A DNA stretch of 64,000 nt, from the NCBI RefSeq assembly GCF_001625215.2, contig NC_030389.2:37871454-37935453 (forward strand), written 5' to 3'. Positions 6,514 to 18,736 of this stretch are shown here, in pieces (the first letter of the stretch is position 1; each line of letters begins with the position of its first letter). The notes below the pieces were generated by a model, which was not told the origin of the DNA, did no database searches, and saw nothing but the letters and a program-made list of their open reading frames with translations. This DNA is from Daucus carota subsp. sativus (taxonomy: Eukaryota > Streptophyta > Magnoliopsida > Apiales > Apiaceae). The position numbers and the translations under genes are program-made.

Positions 6514-8016
6514 AGGAATGGCTCTTCCAAGAAGCCTTATTCTGTTTGTGGTGAAATATTGTTCTAAAACCCCGCAAGTGAGAAATCCTCTCTCCCTCCC
6601 TCTTCTCTCAATTTCTCTGATGAAAACTATGATATGTATAGTCATCAACGCATCACTAGAAATGGTGTCCGAGTCAACGGAGGTTATGAGTCCGAATGCT
6701 CACAGCTGTCAAAGCTCATATCTACAGAAATACAATTAAAAACAAGAAAAACAGGTGCGATCTTTCCAATATATAAAATTTCATGATTATGGTTGTGTGA
6801 TTATTTATGAATTCACGGTATATATTATTATAGTTTGGCTCATCACTCATTTTTCATGATTAAGTATATTGATGTAATGTGCTTGAATCTTTTAGTGTAT
6901 GAGTTGTTTTGTATCCTCTTTTGTCATTTTTTATTCTGTTTTGTCTGAATTGGAGGAGATTGGGTATATGTAACCATTTTTATATTATATGATTAGTTAC
7001 TTTTTGATTCTCGATTCTTTTCGATTCTTAGTTTTCGCTAGTGTCCATGATGAATGTTTGTAGTTTTCCGGTTCTTGCACGGTGACGACGGAGGTGGTGT
7101 AGTGGCGACCTAATTAGCGGGTGTTTTGATATTAGATTATTCTGATTGACTTAGTTTGTTGCATTATTTTAGTTTAGATTTGAAAATTTGGCTTTATTTG
7201 ATTTTAATAGTAGTAAATGTTAATCTTAATTTCAGTTTTGTAAATGGCAAGTTGACTCTTTTAATTTATTTGGTTTTGAAATTTGAATTTTCTCTTCATG
7301 CTTTAATTTCAACTTTTATGTATTCATTAGAAGATTAATTAAAATATTCGGATTTTGAATCTGGTAAATGAATGCATTTAAATCTATTTGCACCATTTAT
7401 GGGTGATTTGAATTTTGAATCTTGTAAATGAATGCATTTAAATTTATGTACCATATATGGGTGGCCATGATTGATGGCGTAAATTCTTGGCCTAGTAGGG
7501 GCAATTTGGTGCCACTTTGTTGGCTTATTTATTATATTTAACTTGTTATCTAAAATTTAAATATCATTTTGAATATCAAAGTTATATTTTTATATTTATA
7601 TTTTAGTTCTTATTAATTATTTAATTATATTCTTAGTAATTATTCAGCTTGTTATATATCTAGCCAAAGGGTCTCCCTTTGGTTAGATATATTTTGTTTT
7701 TATATTTATCTTCTATTTTTGACAGATTATTTTATATTTATTATTTCATCCAACTACTTTTTTTGACGAACTATACTATTTTAATAATTAATTTATAATT
7801 ACTTTTCATGTTATTAATGGATTGTTTTTGTTTCAGGTAGCATGATCATACAAGATGGGACGTTTCTCTTTTCGGACATTAAGTATTATTGTCTAAACTT
7901 CCGGAGACATTTTCATGTCTTTCGGTTAGATAATAAGCTTTTTGAATGAAAGAAACTCCTCGGAGTATTGTTGTATCTCGTTGCGGGAAAGTGCATTTCA
8001 GTCAAAAAAAAAAAAA
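6514..8016 (+). mobile_element. poly(A)-tailed retroposon nested in the MULE
   Basis: The 17-bp sequence AGATTCGTGCATTGTGT occurs at 6497-6513 and again at 8017-8033. The 1503 bp between the copies ends in a run of 13 A (8004-8016). A long target duplication plus a poly(A) tail marks target-primed reverse transcription, as by LINE machinery. Removing the insert restores continuity of the MULE's left inverted repeat. No reverse transcriptase is encoded, so it is a non-autonomous element or a retrotransposed transcript. Related 3'-end sequence lies at about 29160-29340. A local direct duplication of about 55 bp is at 7345-7460. Confidence 0.85.
7655..7691 (+). other. 17-bp stem RNA hairpin in the retroposon
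   Basis: TATATCTAGCCAAAGGG at 7655-7671 pairs with CCCTTTGGTTAGATATA at 7675-7691 across a TCT loop. The one non-Watson-Crick position is a G-U pair in RNA. It could be a structural element of the retroposon transcript. Confidence 0.6.
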
Positions 8017-8119
8017 AGATTCGTGCATTGTGTGTATTTCCGAGCACCCAAACAAGCAAGCAAAGCAAAATCAAGGTTTTTTTTTTTATTATAAATATTT
8101 AAAAACTAAATTTTATTCA

Positions 8120-8660
8120 GATTTTTCTTTTACACAATTTGTATAATTATTTTTTATAAGAATTCTAAAAATGCGTGTTAAATATGCCCCACAATATAAA
8201 TAATTAGAGTGACGGAGGAAATAGTAATTAATTATGTATATCATATTTTTGGATCCTGATTTCTAAGTACAAACATTTATTTCATAAAAATTTTCAAATA
8301 TTAATTTTTTTGTAAAATTTATGATAATAAATAATAATGTATATAAATACCTATTATATTTATGAAATAATTAGCCAAAAAATTTATTGAATAAAAAATG
8401 TTTTTAACGTAATTTGTGAAATTATTTTTATAGGAGTTTTAAAATGCATGTTAAATCTCGTCTACCAAGATAAATAATTGGGGGAACATTGGGAGTAATA
8501 ATTATATATATTATACTTGTGGATACCAGTTACTAATTACAAATATGTATTCCATAAAAAAATTCCAAACATTAATTATTTTGTGAAATGTATGATAATA
8601 ATTTATATAAATATCTATTATATTAATGAGAGAATTTTGAAAAAATAATATTGAATACAC
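8120..8660. repeat. internal direct duplication of the MULE
   Basis: About 8120-8390 and 8400-8660 are imperfect tandem copies. Both contain 'gcgtgttaaat' or 'gcatgttaaat', then 'taaataatt', then 'ttactaattacaaa', then 'ttatataaat' and 'ctattatatt' in the same order. Confidence 0.6.
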
Positions 8661-9641
8661 TGAAATCTAATCATTTTTACACTAATTTATTAATTAAATA
8701 TATTATTAAAGAAGATTATATTTTAAATTATAATTTATTTGTCAAGTTAGGTCGTCAAAGATATAAGTAAATAGATTTTATATTATTTGATGATTTTTTT
8801 ATTTTCAGAACTCTAAAAAAAAAAATTATTAAAAAATTCTATAAAATAAATATATACCATTTTCCTGTTCTAATATAATATACTCCTTGTGTCCTCATTT
8901 GTATACATTTTTTATTCACTGCTTGGCATATACTTTAATTTTTATACGTTTTTTATTCACTACTCGACACGTACTTTAATGTTTCCATAAAATATAATAC
9001 CGTCACCCTAATTGTTTATATAGTGGGACAGCTTTAACTGGTATAGGATTATTATAAAAAAAAATAATTTTACAAATTGTGTCAAAGAAAAATCTGAACA
9101 AAATTTAGTTTTTAAATATTTATAAAAACGAAGAAGAAAACCTTGATTTTGCTTTGCTTACTTGGTTGATAGAGCAGATGCAGTGATGCAGTACATGCCA
9201 CATGGACACGCCTTTAGTCAGGTAATTGTCACTGTTGCCCCTCACCACTAACTCTGTTAAAAAAATTTAACGGAAATACACACAATGTATGAATCTTGAA
9301 ACTAGAGGTACACACTTTGCTATATTCAAAAACTGAGGTACACGAAGTGCATAAAGGTGTAACTTCAGGTACACATCTTACACTTTAGTCATATTTTTAT
9401 CATCATGTTTCCTTTTTTATATAGTTAGAAATGTACATAATTGTTCTGCATGACATGCTTTCAAGTTTGAAGGAAGTATCAGAAGAATTCACCAAGTCAT
9501 TTTTGCAGCATTATATATACGCGAGGTATCGATCTGGGTGCTAGTGCTACAATAGCAGCCTTCTATCAGACATATGACAACTGACTCTGGCCAACAGCAG
9601 TAAGCAAAAGCTAAAATACCGGAATTATGCCATCAACTGTA

Positions 9642-9803
9642 CTTTTTTTTTTTTTTTTTTGACAATGCAGGCTTATATGCCTTACAATTTAGTATCTGTT
9701 CTAATAATTCTCGGGGTGAGCCAGAGTCGAACCCGGGTGCCCCGGGTCAACAGAGGATAAATCCACCACTGAACTATCCACCACTGGGATATCTCTCGTT
9801 ATT
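9642..9803 (-). mobile_element. tRNA-derived SINE
   Basis: On the minus strand the unit begins near 9803 with a tRNA-like head. GATAGTTCAGTGGTGGAT serves as an A-box-like segment and GGGTTCGACTC as a B box. A unique body follows, ending in a 20-base A run (T run at 9642-9661). The head resembles a tRNA, but no cloverleaf can be completed, and the A tail supports a SINE. A degraded relative lies at about 25610-25690. I could not define a clear target duplication. Confidence 0.75.
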
Positions 9804-9889
9804 AGTCCTTTTTTTTTTATAGGCAGCTAGTCGAGAACAGTCAAATGTTAGTAGGCGGAATAAAATTATTGAACGAGAGATATCCTAGA

Positions 9890-11672
9890 ATGATTGATTT
9901 CTACATCAGTTATAGCGTAACGGGACTAATAACGCTAGTTTAGTGTGAATAGCAGATAGTCAAGTCGGTATAGTTCAGAAAAGTCAAATTAGTTTGTCAT
10001 AACAGACTCTCCCGCCATGTACAGAGTGGCAGTACTATATAGTTTAGCATCTTTCTTTCATTTCATTACATTCACATTATCTGTAAATCTCTCTTTTGTG
10101 CAATGAAAGGAATTACTTTCGGAAAATAACATGGTATCAGAACTCACTAACTCATCAACGGCGAATCTTTACGAAGCTCATTTCAGGTGTTAATTTTCTT
10201 CCCAATCGCATTGCTATCGTTAACTACTTAACTCTTCATTTTTGTGCAATAATATCAGTCGAATTAGTGTTCTTGTGCTTGTTTCTTGATTGTTTCTCGA
10301 TGAATTTGATTATTCGCACGGCTTGCGTTGATCTTTAGCATCATTTTCTCAGAATTGTGATTGTTTATGTATTTGTCTATTTTTGACCAACGCACATCAT
10401 CTGTTTGATATTTTGTCTCACTAATCTGTTCATCATTTTTCTAGCTGATTCATCAAATTGGCACACCTTAAACTTCCTGAATTTCTGCTTAATTGTTGGA
10501 TTCTTTTATCTCCAAACCGTAGCTTTCTATTTTTTTTACAAATTCTTTGACTCTGCAAATTTTCTTGCGGTCACTAGTATATTTTCTAGGTGTCTATTGT
10601 ATTCATCTCTCGTATGCATCTACAAATCTACTTGTTTTTGTTAAGTTCAGTGGATTTGGATATCATAACTGAAAATGGTCTATGATGCTCGCTCTCTCAG
10701 CAGGAAACAAATAAGGTTTTGTGAATGGAACCCTTCGGTTCCTGCAATGACCTCTGTTGAGTCAAATGCCGGGAGAGATGGAAATATGGAATGACCTGAT
10801 CATTTCTTGGTTCCTTTTTAACCTGGAAGAACACATTGTCCAGGAAAAAATTTCATTAGGTTCCTTATATAAGTATTTGATAAAAATATATGATAGGAGT
10901 ATTACTTTGTCGTTTTGGGCACACACTTTTATCATATGGATATGTTTGCTATGCGTCCACCTAGAAAGTCAGATGCTAGAGCTACTGCTGGCGTGTTTGT
11001 GGGCTCAAAAGGTTATAATGAATTTCAACAATAATACTATTGTAATCTCTAGAGATGTTCATTTCTATGAGACTCAATTCCCTTACAAAATTCTTTCTCA
11101 CACACACCAAAGTGACCAAATCCCATCTCAGTTCCTTGCATCATTTTTACACCTTTTGTTCCTCGAACACAGATTATGAGGATTCCTCCACTGTTTTTGT
11201 TGATTCATCTTCCAGCCGTACAAGTTTTCATAATGATCATGACTGTAGTACTTATAGTAGATTTATCCACTCTGCCAACTAGACAATCTACTGGAAATAA
11301 GTAGGGCACAACCATCATACTCATAGTTGGCTGATGTTTTCACCAAGACACTTCCTGCCTTGAATCAACAAGACCCAACTTGAGAGGGGTTATTCGAAGT
11401 AATGCCTGTAGTACAAGTGTTGGTAATAACACTAGTCTAGTGTAAATAGCAGATAGTCAAGTATATATAGTTTAGAAAAGTCAAACAGGGAAAGTCAAAT
11501 TTTTTTTTTTTGCTAACTGGGAAAGTCAAATTAGTTTGTTATAACAGACTTTTCCCCCATTTACACAGTAGCAGTAGTAAATATTTAGCATCCTCATTTC
11601 ATTCTGTAACATTCGCATTATCTGTATCTCTCTCTCTCTTGCAATGAAAGGAATTACTTTCAGAAAATACCA
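9890..11672 (+). mobile_element. decayed Ty1/copia retrotransposon
   Basis: An LTR-like segment ends at 10131 (GGAAAATAACA) and is followed at once by TGGTATCAG (10132), the initiator-tRNA-Met primer site of copia elements. Fragments of the pol product follow. Near 10965-11085 there is integrase C-terminal sequence (SKGYNEFQ, ISRDVHFYETQFPY in mixed frames). The RNase H tail (QLADVFTKTLP) is near 11325. A second LTR runs about 11390-11672, beginning after a short purine tract. Most of pol is missing and the frames are broken. The LTRs share 'cactagt..agtgtaaatagcagatagtcaagt' and 'aggaattactttc'. Confidence 0.75.
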
Positions 11673-12218
11673 ATAATGAACTGGTGGAAGATTTTTGTAA
11701 GAGGGAAATGCATATGATTTCGGTGAAGTACTGCAGGTGAATCGTGAATTCAGATATCATTATTGGACAGTGCACGACCTAAACTTTTAGTTGCAGTCAG
11801 TTCAAGATTTTTTTCCATGAGAAGCCTTGTTTAAGGAGCAATCTGACATGGTGACCTGATATACATACATGATTTTCAGAGTATAAGTATGTTTAGTTGT
11901 TTTGCTTCATCGTCGCTTATTTTAAATATTTGGCACTTTATGATGCGGTGAATTTGTCGTAATACTAACTTTAAGGATGTCTAATTACGCTATTAGGCGT
12001 GTTATGTGCTGCTGCTCTTTAACTTGCTGAATTCACTCTATGTTTTACAGAGTCTGAAGAGATGTGGTTCATCCAAACTCCTTGTTATATTTTAGCACAA
12101 CCATTGGACATGCTCTTAGCACAAGATATCAAATAGAACACTATTGTAGTGGTGAATTTTAATTTCTGTTCTATAATGTAGATATAAAACAAGATATAGC
12201 ACATTATACAAAGTACTC

Positions 12219-12550
12219 TTGAGTCTTGTCACTTTGCATTGTGACAACCAATCAGCTATTTACATAGCAAAAAAACCCATGTTTTCCATGATCGTGCAAA
12301 GCATATTAAAGTTGATTGCCTTTTCACTTGAGGCAAAGTGTTGTGTCAATCAGCTATTTACATATCAAAAAACCTTGTTTTCCATGATCGTGCAAAGCAC
12401 ATCAAAGTTGATTGCCTTTTTACTCGAGACAAAGTGTCGGAAGGCCCTCTACTGCTTACTTATTTTCCTACTCAACATCAGTTGGCTGATGTTTTCACCA
12501 TGACAGTTCCATCTCCTCAATTGGTACCAAAGTTGGGTCTTGTTGATTGA

Positions 12551-12583
<33 letters not shown>

Positions 12584-12821
12584 GTTATTGGAAGTAATAC
12601 CAGTAGCATATGTGTTAGTAATAACACTAGTCTCCTGTAGATAGCAGATAGTCAAGTAGCTATAGTTTAGAGAAGTCAAATCGGGAAAGTCAAATTATTT
12701 TGTTCTAGCAGAACTTCCCGCCATGTACAGATAGTTTAGCATCTTCATTTCATTCCGTGACATTTACATTATCTGTAAATCTTTCTCTTTTCCAATGAAA
12801 AATTACTTTCGGAATATAACA
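12219..12821 (+). mobile_element. copia RNase H tail and third LTR
   Basis: 12240-12550 encodes the end of a copia RNase H domain: CDNQSAIYI, NPVFHDRAKHIKVDC, TYFPTQHQLADVF and KLGLVD followed by a stop. About 100 bp of it (the AIYI..DRAKHIK part) is duplicated in tandem, starting at 12250 and 12349, which breaks the frame. A poly(G) tract takes the place of the polypurine tract, then the LTR runs 12583-12821 (TGTTATTGG to ATATAACA, 239 bp). Confidence 0.75.
12553..12582 (+). repeat. homopolymer of 30 G
   Basis: Thirty consecutive G lie between the copia stop codon and the LTR, exactly where the polypurine tract is expected. It may be an expanded polypurine tract, and its length may not be assembled accurately. 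Confidence 0.9.
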
Positions 12822-13315
12822 GTAGAAATCACTTAGCTGCTGCACATTCCATCATAGTGTTTATTCTGTAAATGTTTCGTGGGCCTCATGGCTATTTCGT
12901 GCTCTACAATCAAAAGAAATAATGAGCTAGTGGAAGTTTTTTGTAAGAGGGAAATGCATATGATATTGGTAAATTACTTCTGCAGGTGAAACGTAAATTC
13001 AGATATTATTATTGGACAGTGCATGACCTAAACTTTTAGTTGCAGTCGGTTCAAGATTTTTTCTTATTTGAGAAGCCTTGTTTAAGGAGCAATCTCACGG
13101 GGTGACCTGATATACAGTACATGATTTTCAGGGTATAAGTATGTTTAGTTATTTTGCTTCTATCATCAGTGCTTATTTTGAATATTTGGCATTTTATGAT
13201 GTGCGGGAATCTTCAAAATACTGACTTTAAGGATGTCTTGTTATGCTATTTGGCTTGTTAGGTGCTGCTGCTCTATAACTAGCTGAATTCACTCTATGTT
13301 TTGTGTAGAGCGCAT

Positions 13316-14524
13316 TTGTCTTAGGTTTAAGCCATTTTCGACTTCAAACTGAAAAATGTTTGTTTGTGTAATAAGTCAGGAGTCGGCTTAAAATTAGAAA
13401 TAAGCTGAAAAAAACTGATTTAGAATAGAAGTTGGTTGGATACACTTTTTTAAACTGAGCACTTATCACAATTAAGTCACTCTAAGCTATAAGTTATAAT
13501 TTTAAGTCTGCCCAAAGGGGCTCTGTTTGTAAGAAGAGATGCAGTTGATCCCAACTCCTCGTAATATTTTAGCAATGGTGTCTAAAGAAGCCAAACGTTG
13601 CGTGTTTTTTTTAAGACCACATCTCGATATGGGTAATTTTCTAGAGGAACATTCTGTCGTCGAAGAAATGAATTAAATAAGAGTAAAGTGATGGGTGCCA
13701 GGTCCTGAGGACCACTCTGTTCATGGTGGAAGAATCTCAAGTTCCTAAAACCCTTGAATGCCGTGACCCAAAAGCATGGTGGACTCAGCTGGAGGCAACG
13801 AGCAGAGTTCCCTAGTGAGGGATCAAGGAACCAACGTTAATTGTTTCTCTTTGGATACTTTGTGTATCAGTACAGGTCAAATGTATTGTTATATGCTTTT
13901 TATGGTGAAAGTTATTCTATTACAAAACAGAAAATACCAAAAGAGACCAGTACTGTAATAAGTCTAATATATCTATAGTTGTGCTGACTGTATCCCCACG
14001 TGATAAAAAGATTCGTTACGTTAATAATTAAATATTGATTGTTTAAATCAGAGTAAGTCCATGATTGTATCTAAACTTACATTAAGGCAAGTATACTTTA
14101 AGATTAGAATCTTATTACTTTTATTAACTTTTACAAATCCTGAAATTGCAGTTAATATTGATATGGCATTAGGTGTACGACAGACCCTATTCTGAGTTGA
14201 TATTGACATCTCATAAAGTCTATATATATACACAATATACAATCAGTCCGAATGCAGATGAATACAGATTTTCTTTTACAGGCCTTGGATAGCAGGAAAG
14301 GTGAAAGAGCAAGCTATAAGTCGGTACCAAGTGCACAAGACTCTCGCACGAGCATTCGGGTAAAAGAATGATAGTACTATTGCATCAAAATTTACAGATC
14401 CCTTGTCAAAATGCGAATGGAGGTAAATGGATCTTTCTAATATGTACTCTACTATTTACTGTTCTCTGTCAGATATGTGTATATATCTTTATACATATGC
14501 TTCTTCCAATTCATGTGAATAGAG
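13316..14524 (+). other. intergenic, with one possible terminal exon
   Basis: Mostly non-coding. At 14282-14371 an open block follows a strong acceptor (pyrimidine run, then TTTTACAG). It reads ALDSRKGERASYKSVPSAQD and on to a TGA, which would make a terminal exon of a plus-strand gene. A block at 13725-13800 (VEESQVPKTLECRDPKAWW) resembles DNA near 2890. I cannot name the gene; these may be debris of one gene broken by the transposons to the left. Confidence 0.25.
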
Positions 14525-16523
14525 ATGTATTATTATGCACATTTGCAGATAATGTTGTCAATCCTTGTGGTCCTAAATATTGCCCAAATCATGAATGCCC
14601 AAAATTTCGACTTAGTTGTAGCACAAGATGGATCGGGAAGTTTTACTCAAATCTCTGAAGCTGTTGCTGCTGCACCGATTAATAGTTTGCGGAAGTTCTA
14701 CATTAAAATTAATGCAGGCACGTATAATGAGCGTGTTCAAGTAGGATATGACAAGAAGAACCTTGCTTTTATAGGAGATGGTATGGATTCGACAATTATA
14801 ACCTTCGGCAGGTCTACCGAAGCCGGTTATATCCTCACCGATACTGCCACAGCAGGTATACATCTCCGTCATAGTATTACTCTTTTTGTTCACTTTACCT
14901 TGATGTGATCTACAATGTATAAGCAAATGGTAAATATGTGTTGCTATAACATTCATTCTTGCATATACTAAGTGTATATAGGGGTTTTGGTTCATGGTAA
15001 ATGAGCTCAGTTAACGGGATTCGGAACTTGAATCCCATTTATTGGTGTGTAGATTAGAAATTTAGTTGCTTGGAATGGGAATGGGAATGGGAATGGGGGT
15101 TAATGAGAATGAGAGTGATATGAAATCCAAAAGTGTAGTTAAGAAATGAGTTACACATCTTATGGGGATGATGTTCCCATTCCAATCATCTACATTCCTA
15201 ATCCATACACTAAGAAGTGTAGTAAAGATATGAGTTATACATCTAATGGGGATGATTTCCCATTCCAATCATCTACATTTCTGATCCATACACTAACACA
15301 TGAGATAAAGGTTCTGATTCCGGTTAACCGGGCTCATTAACCATGTACTAGTCAAAGAGACTTAAAGAGTTTCTGCTAGTGTTATCAGCGCAAATCGAGA
15401 GGTAGAAACTAGTCATGCAAATTGAGAGGTAGAAACTAGTCATGTACGACTAAAAGTAGTTTTTGCTACTGAGGTTAGAAGAACTCGACAGCAGCAGTGG
15501 CTGCTAATACCAGTAGACTGTGACAATTAGAAGTTCTTGCAAAGAATATAAGCAGGAAGAAAGTTTATTAGTCCTTTATCACTGATATCAGCTACTAATA
15601 TAAGAAAAAATAAGCTGTATTAGCTACTACCACAGTGAATTGTACTATTCCTTTCCTCCTAATAGTTTTTTCCTTAATAAGTTCCTCCTAATTGTTTAAC
15701 AGTGAATTCTATAAAATAATCTGCAGATATATTAGGGGACGGATTCATAGCAATGGGTATAACCTTTATAAATTCCGCTGGATCAAGCAATGAGCAAGCC
15801 GTGGCGTTGAGAAGCACTTCCCACTTTTCTGCGTTTTATCAGTGTAGATTTGAGGGGTTCCAGGACACACTTTTTGTTGGAAACGGCACTCAATTTTACA
15901 GAAGTTGTGAAATCTATGGAAGCGTTGATTTTATATTCGGTGATGCTGCAGTAGTTTTCCAAAATTGTGACATATATGTTCGCGAGCCTCCTCCAGGTAA
16001 AGCTTGTTATGTGACAGCACAAGCAAGAGATAGCAAAAAGAAGAATACAGGCACTGTATTACACAACTGCACAATCACAACGGATAATAACAATAGGCCT
16101 GTCTTCGGAACAAAGGTCTACCTTGGCAGGCCATGGAGATCATATTCAACCGTGGTTGTAATGCAATCATATTTAGATGATATAATTGATCCTCAGGGAT
16201 GGCTTCCATGGGAAAATACTGATACTGGTCTTGATACTCTATATTATGGTGAATATCAGAATCGAGGTCCAGGTGCTGTTACTAATCAGAGGGTTACTTG
16301 GAAAGGATTTAGAGTTATGGATTTCTCAGATGCTAAGAAATTTACTGTGAGGAATTTTTTACAAGGAGAAGAATGGTTACCCCTCATAAACATCCCATTT
16401 TCACCAGACCTCAGTCAGTGGCGATCCCAGGATACATCCATCTATTATAGTTCAGAAGGAGCTCAAATACACTGGATTGGATATTTTTTAGCTGTAGTAA
16501 TCATTATTGTTGTTTACGGATAA
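14525..16523 (+). CDS. pectinesterase (pectin methylesterase), secreted
   Basis: Demethylates cell-wall homogalacturonan. Exon 1 is 14525-14855 and exon 2 is 15727-16523 (GT-AG; the split codon gives Asp111); total 375 aa. A hydrophobic leader (MLSILVVLNIAQIMNA from a second in-frame ATG at 14552) suggests secretion; either ATG may start. Catalytic-site residues are present: Gln134 (EQAVAL), Gln156-Asp157 (FQDTL), Asp178 (VDFIFG) and Arg245 (LGRPW). Two signature changes are seen: the usual GNA after DFIF is GDA, and the His of the HQAVAL motif is Glu. There is no N-terminal inhibitor (PMEI) pro-domain. The C-terminus adds a hydrophobic stretch (WIGYFLAVVIIIVVY) after a small-residue region, like a GPI-anchor signal. 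The intron holds a MITE. Probably functional, although an upstream exon cannot be excluded. Confidence 0.87.
14993..15344. mobile_element. MITE in the pectinesterase intron
   Basis: CATGGTAAATGAGCTCAG at the left and the complement of the right end, CATGGTTAATGAGCCCGG, open inverted repeats that match over about 70 bp. The interior carries a 'gggaat' microsatellite (15076-15102). It also has two tandem 83-bp units (15134-15213 and 15217-15296), each running from GTGTAGT to CCATACACTAA. I could not define the target duplication, so the superfamily is unassigned. Confidence 0.7.
15385..15445. repeat. short tandem repeat, about 29 bp twice
   Basis: The phrase 'gagaggtagaaactagtcat' appears twice, preceded by GCAAATC and GCAAATT, inside the pectinesterase intron. 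Confidence 0.7.
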
Positions 16524-16748
16524 ACAAATTGATATCTGAACAAAGATTCATTGATTCTATCTTATAACATGTAGTTTCTTATGGCTAAGACCCAATCATC
16601 CAGTACAAAATTTAACATGATAGCAGGACAGTAACTGATTTCGAAAGTCTGTCAAAATTGAATATATACATTTGACATCAAACACTCCTGACAATCACAA
16701 AACAAAATACAGAAATGGAAAATCTCAGTACACTGGTACTATGTGACA

Positions 16749-17036
16749 CTACATTGGTAGTACTCTAGTGCTGGAGCCATTTTTGCTGAAAAATCGAGAA
16801 ATTCTTCCCACAATCTTCTTCACAAACTTCGCGAAAGAGCTGAAGCCAACAAACCTTTTTCGGCTTTTAGCACGTTCATCATCTACATTGCTCAGAGTGT
16901 GGAACGACCTTGTATGATACTTTCTCTTCTTGCTTCTGGTTAACAAATACGGGGGAGGATGTTTTTCATACTCTTCTAGATTAATAGTAAAATTACGACA
17001 ATCTGCACCAGCCATTGCTAAAGCTTCTAGTGACAT
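16749..17036 (-). CDS. small plant protein of unknown function, 95 aa
   Basis: An intact single-exon ORF from ATG (17034-17036). The N-terminus MSLEALAMAGADC followed by NFTINLEEYE and PPPYLL looks like a short conserved motif of small plant proteins of unknown function; this is recalled, not searched. The middle is basic (RSKKRKYHTR, KSRKRF). A lysine-rich amphipathic segment near the end (FAKFVKKIVGRISRFFSK) could contact membranes or nucleic acid. No signal peptide. It is convergent with the pectinesterase: the two stops are about 225 bp apart. A TATA-like GCTATATATTC (minus strand) lies about 110 bp upstream of the ATG. Confidence 0.6.
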   Translation of the reverse strand: MSLEALAMAGADCRNFTINLEEYEKHPPPYLLTRSKKRKYHTRSFHTLSNVDDERAKSRKRFVGFSSFAKFVKKIVGRISRFFSKNGSSTRVLPM

Positions 17037-18081
17037 TACTGGAATGCAGTTGCAAAATAATCTTAGTAGTAAACAAGAAAATCTTGAACTGATAACACTG
17101 TCTATGATGTGTAAAAATGACTAGCTTTTTATACGGTATGAGTGAATATATAGCATCAGTGTCTATCTAGAATGAAAATTTTAAACTGCAGCTAGGTAGT
17201 TAGTAGTTATGATCCTGTTTAGTTGGATAATTTTTTTTATTTGTTTCCCCAGATTACAGGAGAAATTCATGGGGATATAATTATCTGTCTATCAATTTTG
17301 GGATCACTTTTTCAAAGTTTTAGCAACAGGAAGACTCCAGAAATAGCTGGACTTCGGGCCCTTGAGATTTCTTCAACTTTCCTAACCTACTCGTAACAAA
17401 TTTATATTTGTGGTAGTTTTACAAAGATTTTTCTTTTGTTTTGCAATTTGTAGTCATAAATAAAATAAATGCAATGAAGTGAAATATTATAAATAAATGC
17501 TTTTTAAGTTTAGAAAAATTATAAAAATTCCATCTAGAAATTTTCAAAAAATAGTTATCTAACATATTTCAGATTAGTATTATCCATAATTTCCAATCAT
17601 TCAGAAAATATTATTTATAATTAACGAATAATTCTATACCTATTATAAACGAGTAAATATAAATTATGGATCATCCTTACATATACTTTTGAGTAAAAAT
17701 GATGGCTTATATTTAAGTAGGTGATTTTGAATCTATAGTATATTAATTATATATTATTTTTCTTTTAACACAAATGGTGATCCAGACTTGCTAGACAGTA
17801 GACACCTGACTTATAGTTCCCTACATGATCTAATGCAGCTTAAAAACATCACTGTTTAATAAATGCAGAGGAGCTAGTAATACATGGCGAAACATCTGCA
17901 TCCATGACGCGGCAGAAATACAGAACTGACCAGGAAAACTGTACAGAAACTCGAGGGAAAGCATTTGTCCAACTGAAGATTTACCTGTCAAGCAGAATAT
18001 ACAACTTGAAAAAGTATAACAAGAAAGAATACAATGCTGAAGAGCATGGAAAATGTGCTTCCACTTGAAGATAATCCTGAT
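17037..18081. other. intergenic region and displaced gene tail
   Basis: 17037-17200 is the promoter side of the 95-aa gene. 17200-17800 is AT-rich with no gene seen. On the minus strand, 18073 down to about 17995 still holds the former C-terminal coding segment and stop of the neighbouring gene, now cut off by the MITE at 18082-18285. Confidence 0.55.
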
Positions 18082-18285
18082 CAGGGGCGGATTTAGGAAG
18101 AGGCACGAGGGGACACGTGCCCCCACTAAATTTTTTTTTTACATTTTTTCACCATTCTAAATTTTACAAAATTATAGAAGTGCCCCCCCCCCCCCCCCCA
18201 AAAAAAAAAAAATTGAAAATATATAAGTGTTTTCCGAAAATTTGCTTGGTGCCCCCCTAAGATTTTGTGTCTAGATCCGCCCCTG
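18082..18285. mobile_element. hAT-type MITE, 204 bp
   Basis: The terminal inverted repeats are CAGGGGCGGAT and ATCCGCCCCTG. The 8-bp sequence ATCCTGAT flanks both sides (18074-18081 and 18286-18293). An 8-bp duplication with CAGGG-type ends is diagnostic of hAT. Inside are an 18-base C run and a 13-base A run (18182-18212). It sits in the coding region of the minus-strand gene. Confidence 0.92.
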
Positions 18286-18736
18286 ATCCTGATGCTGCTG
18301 CCTTGGCAGCTTTCAGTTTCTTCAGCGCCTTCATACGTTCTTTCCTTGCCTTCTTCAGTATTGCTAGTTCCGCAATCTCTTTCACTAACTTGTGGTCAGA
18401 AGCATACAAAATTAAGCCTTGAGGTGGCCGAGGAGGTTTAGAAGACTTTTTAGCACTAGATACTTTACGTTTCTCCTTCCCTACTTGGCTCTCTGCAACA
18501 TTGGCAGCCTCTTCGCCCTCTGTCTTCACGTCTAAAGGTGATTTCACTTTCTCTGCAGAAGCCGCGTTGGTATCTGACAGACACAATCCTACTTCAACCT
18601 TAATCGTTCTCTCAGCATTATCAAAACCTTTACAAAATAAGAAAGTTCTTGCTAATGTGGCACCTGAAATAGTGTCCGTTCCTCTCAATCCTTCACTAAG
18701 AATCACACCAGCCTCAAGATCAATCTCTTTTTCCAT
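18257..18736 (-). CDS. plant protein with transposon-derived C-terminus
   Basis: The real start is the ATG at 18734-18736 (MEKEIDLEAGVILSEG); the frame extends a little further upstream but without an ATG. The middle is Ser/Lys-rich (KKSSKPPRPPQG). A charged helical segment follows (LVKEIAELAILKKARKERMKALKKLKAAKAA). The last codons, for GADLDTKS and the stop, lie inside the hAT MITE. Beyond the MITE the same frame would continue through a Ser-rich linker into about 20 hydrophobic residues (FSIVFFLVILFQVVY) and a stop near 17995. The ancestral protein therefore looks tail-anchored, and this allele has lost the anchor. I recall plant proteins with this layout but cannot name the family. About 159 aa as it stands. 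Confidence 0.7.
   Translation of the reverse strand: MEKEIDLEAGVILSEGLRGTDTISGATLARTFLFCKGFDNAERTIKVEVGLCLSDTNAASAEKVKSPLDVKTEGEEAANVAESQVGKEKRKVSSAKKSSKPPRPPQGLILYASDHKLVKEIAELAILKKARKERMKALKKLKAAKAAASGSGADLDTKS

Follow-up and report, generated by a model that had tools for sequence, protein, structure and literature searches.

Can the insertion of a MITE into a coding frame turn a membrane-attached protein into a soluble one, or does it simply break the gene? The question is raised by a small plant gene on the minus strand of the window (the whole stretch of 64,000 nucleotides that was analysed), for which a sequence-only reading had proposed that a hAT-type MITE supplied a new C-terminus and converted a tail-anchored protein into a soluble one. 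The open reading frames place the ATG of this gene at 18736, and the frame is open down to 18286. The coding body from the ATG to the MITE (18286..18736, minus strand) therefore comprises 150 codons and one base; both the open frame and five paralogs elsewhere in the genome support it, and it holds an N-terminal part and the basic helix-like motif SKPPRPPQGLILYASDHKLVKEIAELAILKKARKERMKALKKLKAAKA. We consider it probable that the MITE entered the Ser-rich linker of the gene, that the product ends 8 codons into the element without the hydrophobic segment encoded beyond it, and that the anchor was lost from a redundant, decaying copy. Most likely, the gene is a redundant one and the allele seen here has lost its anchor.

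The MITE occupies 18082..18285 (minus strand, 204 bp) and is delimited by its terminal inverted repeats, its target site duplication and its copies elsewhere in the genome. In gene-sense orientation the two termini read CAGGGGCGGATCTAG and CTAAATCCGCCCCTG. The element is flanked by ATCCTGAT on both sides, nearer the gene start at 18286..18293 and beyond the MITE at 18074..18081, and the two copies are identical at 8/8 positions, which bears out the 8-bp duplication described earlier. An 8-bp target site duplication is a defining trait of hAT-type elements, and we take CAGGGGCGG to be a hAT-like terminus. A search of the genome (441,086,747 bases, 11 contigs) returned at least 41 scored matches of the family, the window copy included; this is a lower bound because only 41 were scored out of 595 candidates. 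Thirty of the 41, again with the window copy, were fetched and the other 11 were left out. The flanking duplications match at 8/8 positions in 22 of the 30 copies and at 7/8 or better in 28, although the scan let each end slide up to 8 bases and is thus biased toward matches. Twenty-nine of the 30 copies are 184-191 bp long. The exact 15-base terminus of the MITE occurs 260 times in the genome, whereas its reversed control does not occur at all, and the three sense frames of the element hold stops and low-complexity runs, i.e., no transposase frame. The target site duplication, the termini common to the family, and the short, uniform, multi-copy form without a transposase frame identify the element as a hAT-type MITE. 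A chance repeat is ruled out by the genome copies, the flanking duplications and the terminus count.

Compared with the consensus of the 29 other copies, the window MITE differs at 7 of 186 aligned bases. All of the 18 gap columns in this comparison come from an expanded T/G run, which in gene sense (window 18183-18212) reads T13 G17 as opposed to T4 G7 in the family consensus and accounts for the extra length of the window copy. Alternatively, the long run could be a matter of sequencing or assembly.

Domains for hAT dimerisation are common in the genome, with at least 150 matches out of 525 candidates, and no autonomous partner carrying the termini of the MITE was found among 100 of the 260 terminus places. 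One convergent pair of termini at a spacing of 1-10 kb was noticed by eye among the 100 places listed (L048, G000:C2:58064112-58069497). Its termini lie 5.4 kb apart and an inner frame resembles an ABC transporter by eye; the pair was rejected as an autonomous partner, having unlike flanks without a target site duplication and no transposase frame recognised by eye. Five other frames read into MITE copies, two of which were run against Pfam. At L008 (G000:C7:36095669-36095856), the frame that enters the element ends QGRI-stop inside it, and its translation corresponds to the beginning of a legume lectin domain (PF00139, E 1.1e-14, profile 2-83 of 250); this is likely a second coding insertion of the family among the 30 copies examined. 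At L004 (G000:C1:44566497-44566682), a 94-codon frame enters the element and has the look of a glycosyl-hydrolase end by eye, with no Pfam match at 0.001.

The host frame crosses the duplication nearer the gene start, passes through one codon that spans the junction of gene and MITE, and then reads 8 codons fully inside the element, GADLDTKS, before the stop TAG at 18259-18257. The frame translation thus gives a MITE-encoded C-terminus at 18257..18285 (minus strand), as the sequence-only reading had stated. The predicted present-day product is 159 residues long, and the basic motif of the family is kept. If translated, it would lack the hydrophobic segment, and the best 19-residue mean hydropathy of the present-day frame is 0.77. 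The present-day protein matches no Pfam family at E 1. Among the six aligned members of its family, the window gene being represented by its empty-site protein (see below), that protein had no Pfam match, and six Pfam families were matched weakly, each by 1-3 members (best E 0.0083). A PDB profile search gave one match, at E 0.59. The protein family is one without a Pfam model or a solved-structure match.

To reconstruct the empty site, the MITE and one copy of the duplication were removed in silico. The frame then runs on as AASGLSSSGSTFSMLFSIVFFLVILFQVVYSA / ASGLSSSGSTFSMLFSIVFFLVILFQVVYSA to a TGA at 17990-17988. This stranded former coding tail (17988..18073, minus strand) contains a Ser-rich linker and a hydrophobic segment of about 20 residues (about 17997-18056), which raises the best 19-residue mean hydropathy to 2.49, and the empty-site protein ends 5 residues past the VILFQ of the segment. 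The linker, the hydrophobic residues and the stop beyond the MITE were therefore read correctly. That the same frame resumes past the MITE is true relative to the empty site and fails in the present gene, where the MITE and one duplication amount to 212 bp, a length not divisible by 3, so that the tail is shifted out of frame in addition to lying behind the MITE stop. A genome search with the downstream flank (17780-18081) matched its own locus and no second copy. The window tail has kept its open frame and matches the paralog L039 best (82% identity over 22 residues), followed by 56% with L038 and 52% with L041, both over 25 residues. This open state is uninformative, since a simulated neutral tail stays open in 87% of runs at 0.06 changes per base. 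The insertion is presumably young relative to the gene.

It is also evident from the paralogs that the segment was there before the MITE. Of the seven hits in a protein search of the genome, one was the gene itself and five were paralogs (E 1.5e-32 to 4.5e-11); the seventh, L015 at E 0.70, looked unrelated by eye and was left out of the paralog counts. All five paralogs have PPRPP with the basic motif, the Ser-rich linker and the hydrophobic segment; the segment lies at the equivalent place, with a best 19-residue mean hydropathy of 2.37-2.65. Because linker and segment are kept in 5/5 paralogs, the segment counts as ancestral and was severed by the insertion, in agreement with the earlier claim. 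Relatives without the hydrophobic tail, which would speak against that claim, were sought among these five same-genome paralogs, and 0/5 lack it; an ortholog scan of prokaryote contigs found none. The segment presumably serves as a membrane anchor. The paralogs on C7 and C8 have common surroundings, on one side in the listed hits. When the 64-kb window was compared with about 27 kb around these two paralogs, only the gene itself and hits near 43.2-47.6 kb were found. The window gene is a diverged copy outside the surroundings common to the paralogs, perhaps moved to its present place or left over from an older duplication.

We then consider whether the lost segment was a tail anchor. Tail-anchored proteins have a single hydrophobic segment close to the C-terminus and are inserted into the membrane post-translationally. 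The description as tail-anchored is only partly borne out: it would suit the empty-site protein of the window gene, which ends 5 residues after VILFQ, and is doubtful for the family, in which 4/5 paralogs have an intron and a further coding exon. By eye, a GT directly follows the segment in 5/5 paralogs (CAAG/GT in four and CATG/GT in one), and past an AG, exon 2 continues the frame in 4/5 (GVSSRSS...GSPES and similar). In the two complete paralogs, the stretch after the segment is 65 and 67 residues long and is closed by exon 3; in two others it has at least 47 residues, and in the remaining one it looks short by eye. All exon limits were drawn by eye, guided by the sequence and by how similar the paralogs are. 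As an intron and a coding exon follow in 4/5 paralogs, the ancestral family protein was most likely single-pass and carried further C-terminal residues past the segment. In four of the five (L038, L039, L040 and L041), the frame read without splicing stops 4 to 6 codons past the segment, again by eye, so an unspliced paralog transcript would give a form that looks tail-anchored. The empty-site end of the window gene, VVYSA, resembles this unspliced form.

At the place of the paralogs' intron-1 donor (18003..18005, minus strand), the window reads CAAGTT when compared by eye. A donor-like CAG/GTAAAT lies just past the former stop (17979..17987, minus strand) and has the highest donor score in 17700-18736 under a rough matrix. 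A tblastn search of window 8001-18000 with the four known post-segment peptides gave nothing better than E 0.26. In the control of 12 directed paralog pairs, six were detected at about 1e-4 or better (best 6e-13), four at 0.005-0.074, and two gave nothing at 0.1; a diverged exon 2 could thus have been missed, or the exon could lie beyond the 10 kb. Exon 2 was probably lost or never received by the window gene. With no exon detected in the 10 kb downstream and the donor altered, the gene may have become tail-anchor-like: its downstream exon or exons would have been lost or never carried before the insertion, and the protein would have ended just past the segment.

The strongest rival to this account, to which we give somewhat less than an even chance, is a null allele or young pseudogene from which little or no protein is made and nothing soluble is gained, the proposed causes being the MITE stop, the long 3′ untranslated sequence that it leaves, and relaxation that began earlier. 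A codon branch model, run on six sequences and one assumed tree with 137 of 146 columns free of gaps, is consistent with such relaxation. Over the whole body, omega on the window branch is 0.64 versus 0.25 elsewhere (LRT 4.70), and this value is not separable from 1 (LRT 0.87), so decay of the gene may already have set in. The body was split into the N-terminal part and the basic motif after the whole-body result was seen, and the p values, about 0.03 from the LRTs with one degree of freedom, are uncorrected. On the window branch, the N-terminal part (88 columns) has an omega of 1.21 (LRT 5.89 versus the value of the other branches), and the basic motif (49 columns) has an omega of 0.21, for which omega = 1 is worse by LRT 4.47. 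The N-terminal part is relaxed and the basic motif constrained on this branch. A null allele also accords with the altered donor and the missing match to a downstream exon, with the five segment-bearing paralogs that could cover the function, and with the position of the first listed poly(A)-like motif past the new stop, ATTAAA at 17860, about 400 bases on.

What speaks against a null allele is the state of the 150 upstream codons, which are all open. In simulations of neutral substitution over 150 codons, 5% of runs remained stop-free at 0.2 changes per base and 2% at 0.3; the simulations contain substitutions only, without indels, and the fitted neutral distance of the window branch is 0.25. 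Since an open frame is rare in neutral runs and the omega of the motif is 0.21, the gene was under constraint over much of its history. This constraint mostly reflects the time before the insertion and says little about the time since, and it weighs against a null allele to that extent. A change into a soluble protein is plausible, and loss of expression is no less likely. Under the preferred account, the redundant copy would have lost its membrane attachment and would be heading for decay, rather than serving as a new soluble protein under selection. Should the truncated protein be absent, the locus represents one more MITE breaking a redundant gene; if it is made, the locus is a natural experiment in which the motif has been split from the segment, with five paralogs as controls in the same genome.

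It seems unlikely to us that the product is a soluble or nuclear derivative put to a new use, its freed basic motif competing with or regulating the anchored paralogs. This reading draws on the constrained motif, and the basic stretch KKARKERMKALKKLKAAKAA could act as a localisation signal. The constraint is not datable to the time after the insertion, however, and the N-terminal part is relaxed. We likewise put a low probability on the proposal that the MITE made an expressed soluble derivative whose conserved motif would still work on the partners of the anchored paralogs. If that derivative is real, a transposon changed the address of a protein in one step. According to the part of PMC8227079 available to us, carrot hAT-like MITEs exceed the other MITE groups both in their relative frequency within coding regions and UTRs and in how often they are co-transcribed, which would favor such a derivative.

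It is also improbable that some transcripts keep the segment through cryptic splicing that drops the MITE together with some upstream codons. Pairing every GT upstream of the MITE stop with every AG as far as the old stop, for introns of at least 60 bases, gave 17 GT-AG pairs that would restore the tail frame, each of them losing upstream protein. The cheapest joins the donor AAC/GTATGA at 18336 to an acceptor CAG ending at 18077 and would give 162 residues. This donor scores about 0, with no G before the GT (rough matrix), and the better-scoring donors at 18708 and 18663 remove most of the protein. Excerpts of PMC8227079 point both ways: among carrot genes with hAT-like MITEs and variable MITE coverage, 5/40 random picks had differential exon use, but intronic hAT-like MITEs in carrot are often retained in transcripts. 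GT-AG removal of exactly the MITE is excluded, since 18336 is the last GT before the MITE stop, and stop read-through is excluded as well, since the 212-bp insert shifts the frame and leaves the segment out of reach.

No earlier report of the window gene was found in the literature searched, so far as the sources were available in part, which is no proof of absence. The carrot hAT-like MITEs, stated in the same portion of PMC8227079 to contribute to new splice variants, are similar to the window element in being short elements with terminal inverted repeats, 8-bp duplications and many copies, here in a gene. The window family and gene are not named in that portion, and the window element differs from those described there in ending a protein and cutting off a hydrophobic segment. 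Protein truncation by a MITE is an already known kind of event, judging from the section of a review (PMC12595863) that describes the Mutator MITE FaSt in apricot ParMDO, where it leads to a truncated protein and is linked to self-compatibility. The two cases are alike in that a MITE in a gene truncates the protein, but the transposon superfamily and the gene are different.

Elsewhere in the window, a frame at 15720-16523 (plus strand) resembles, by eye, the final exon of a pectinesterase, with a hydrophobic stretch just before its stop.
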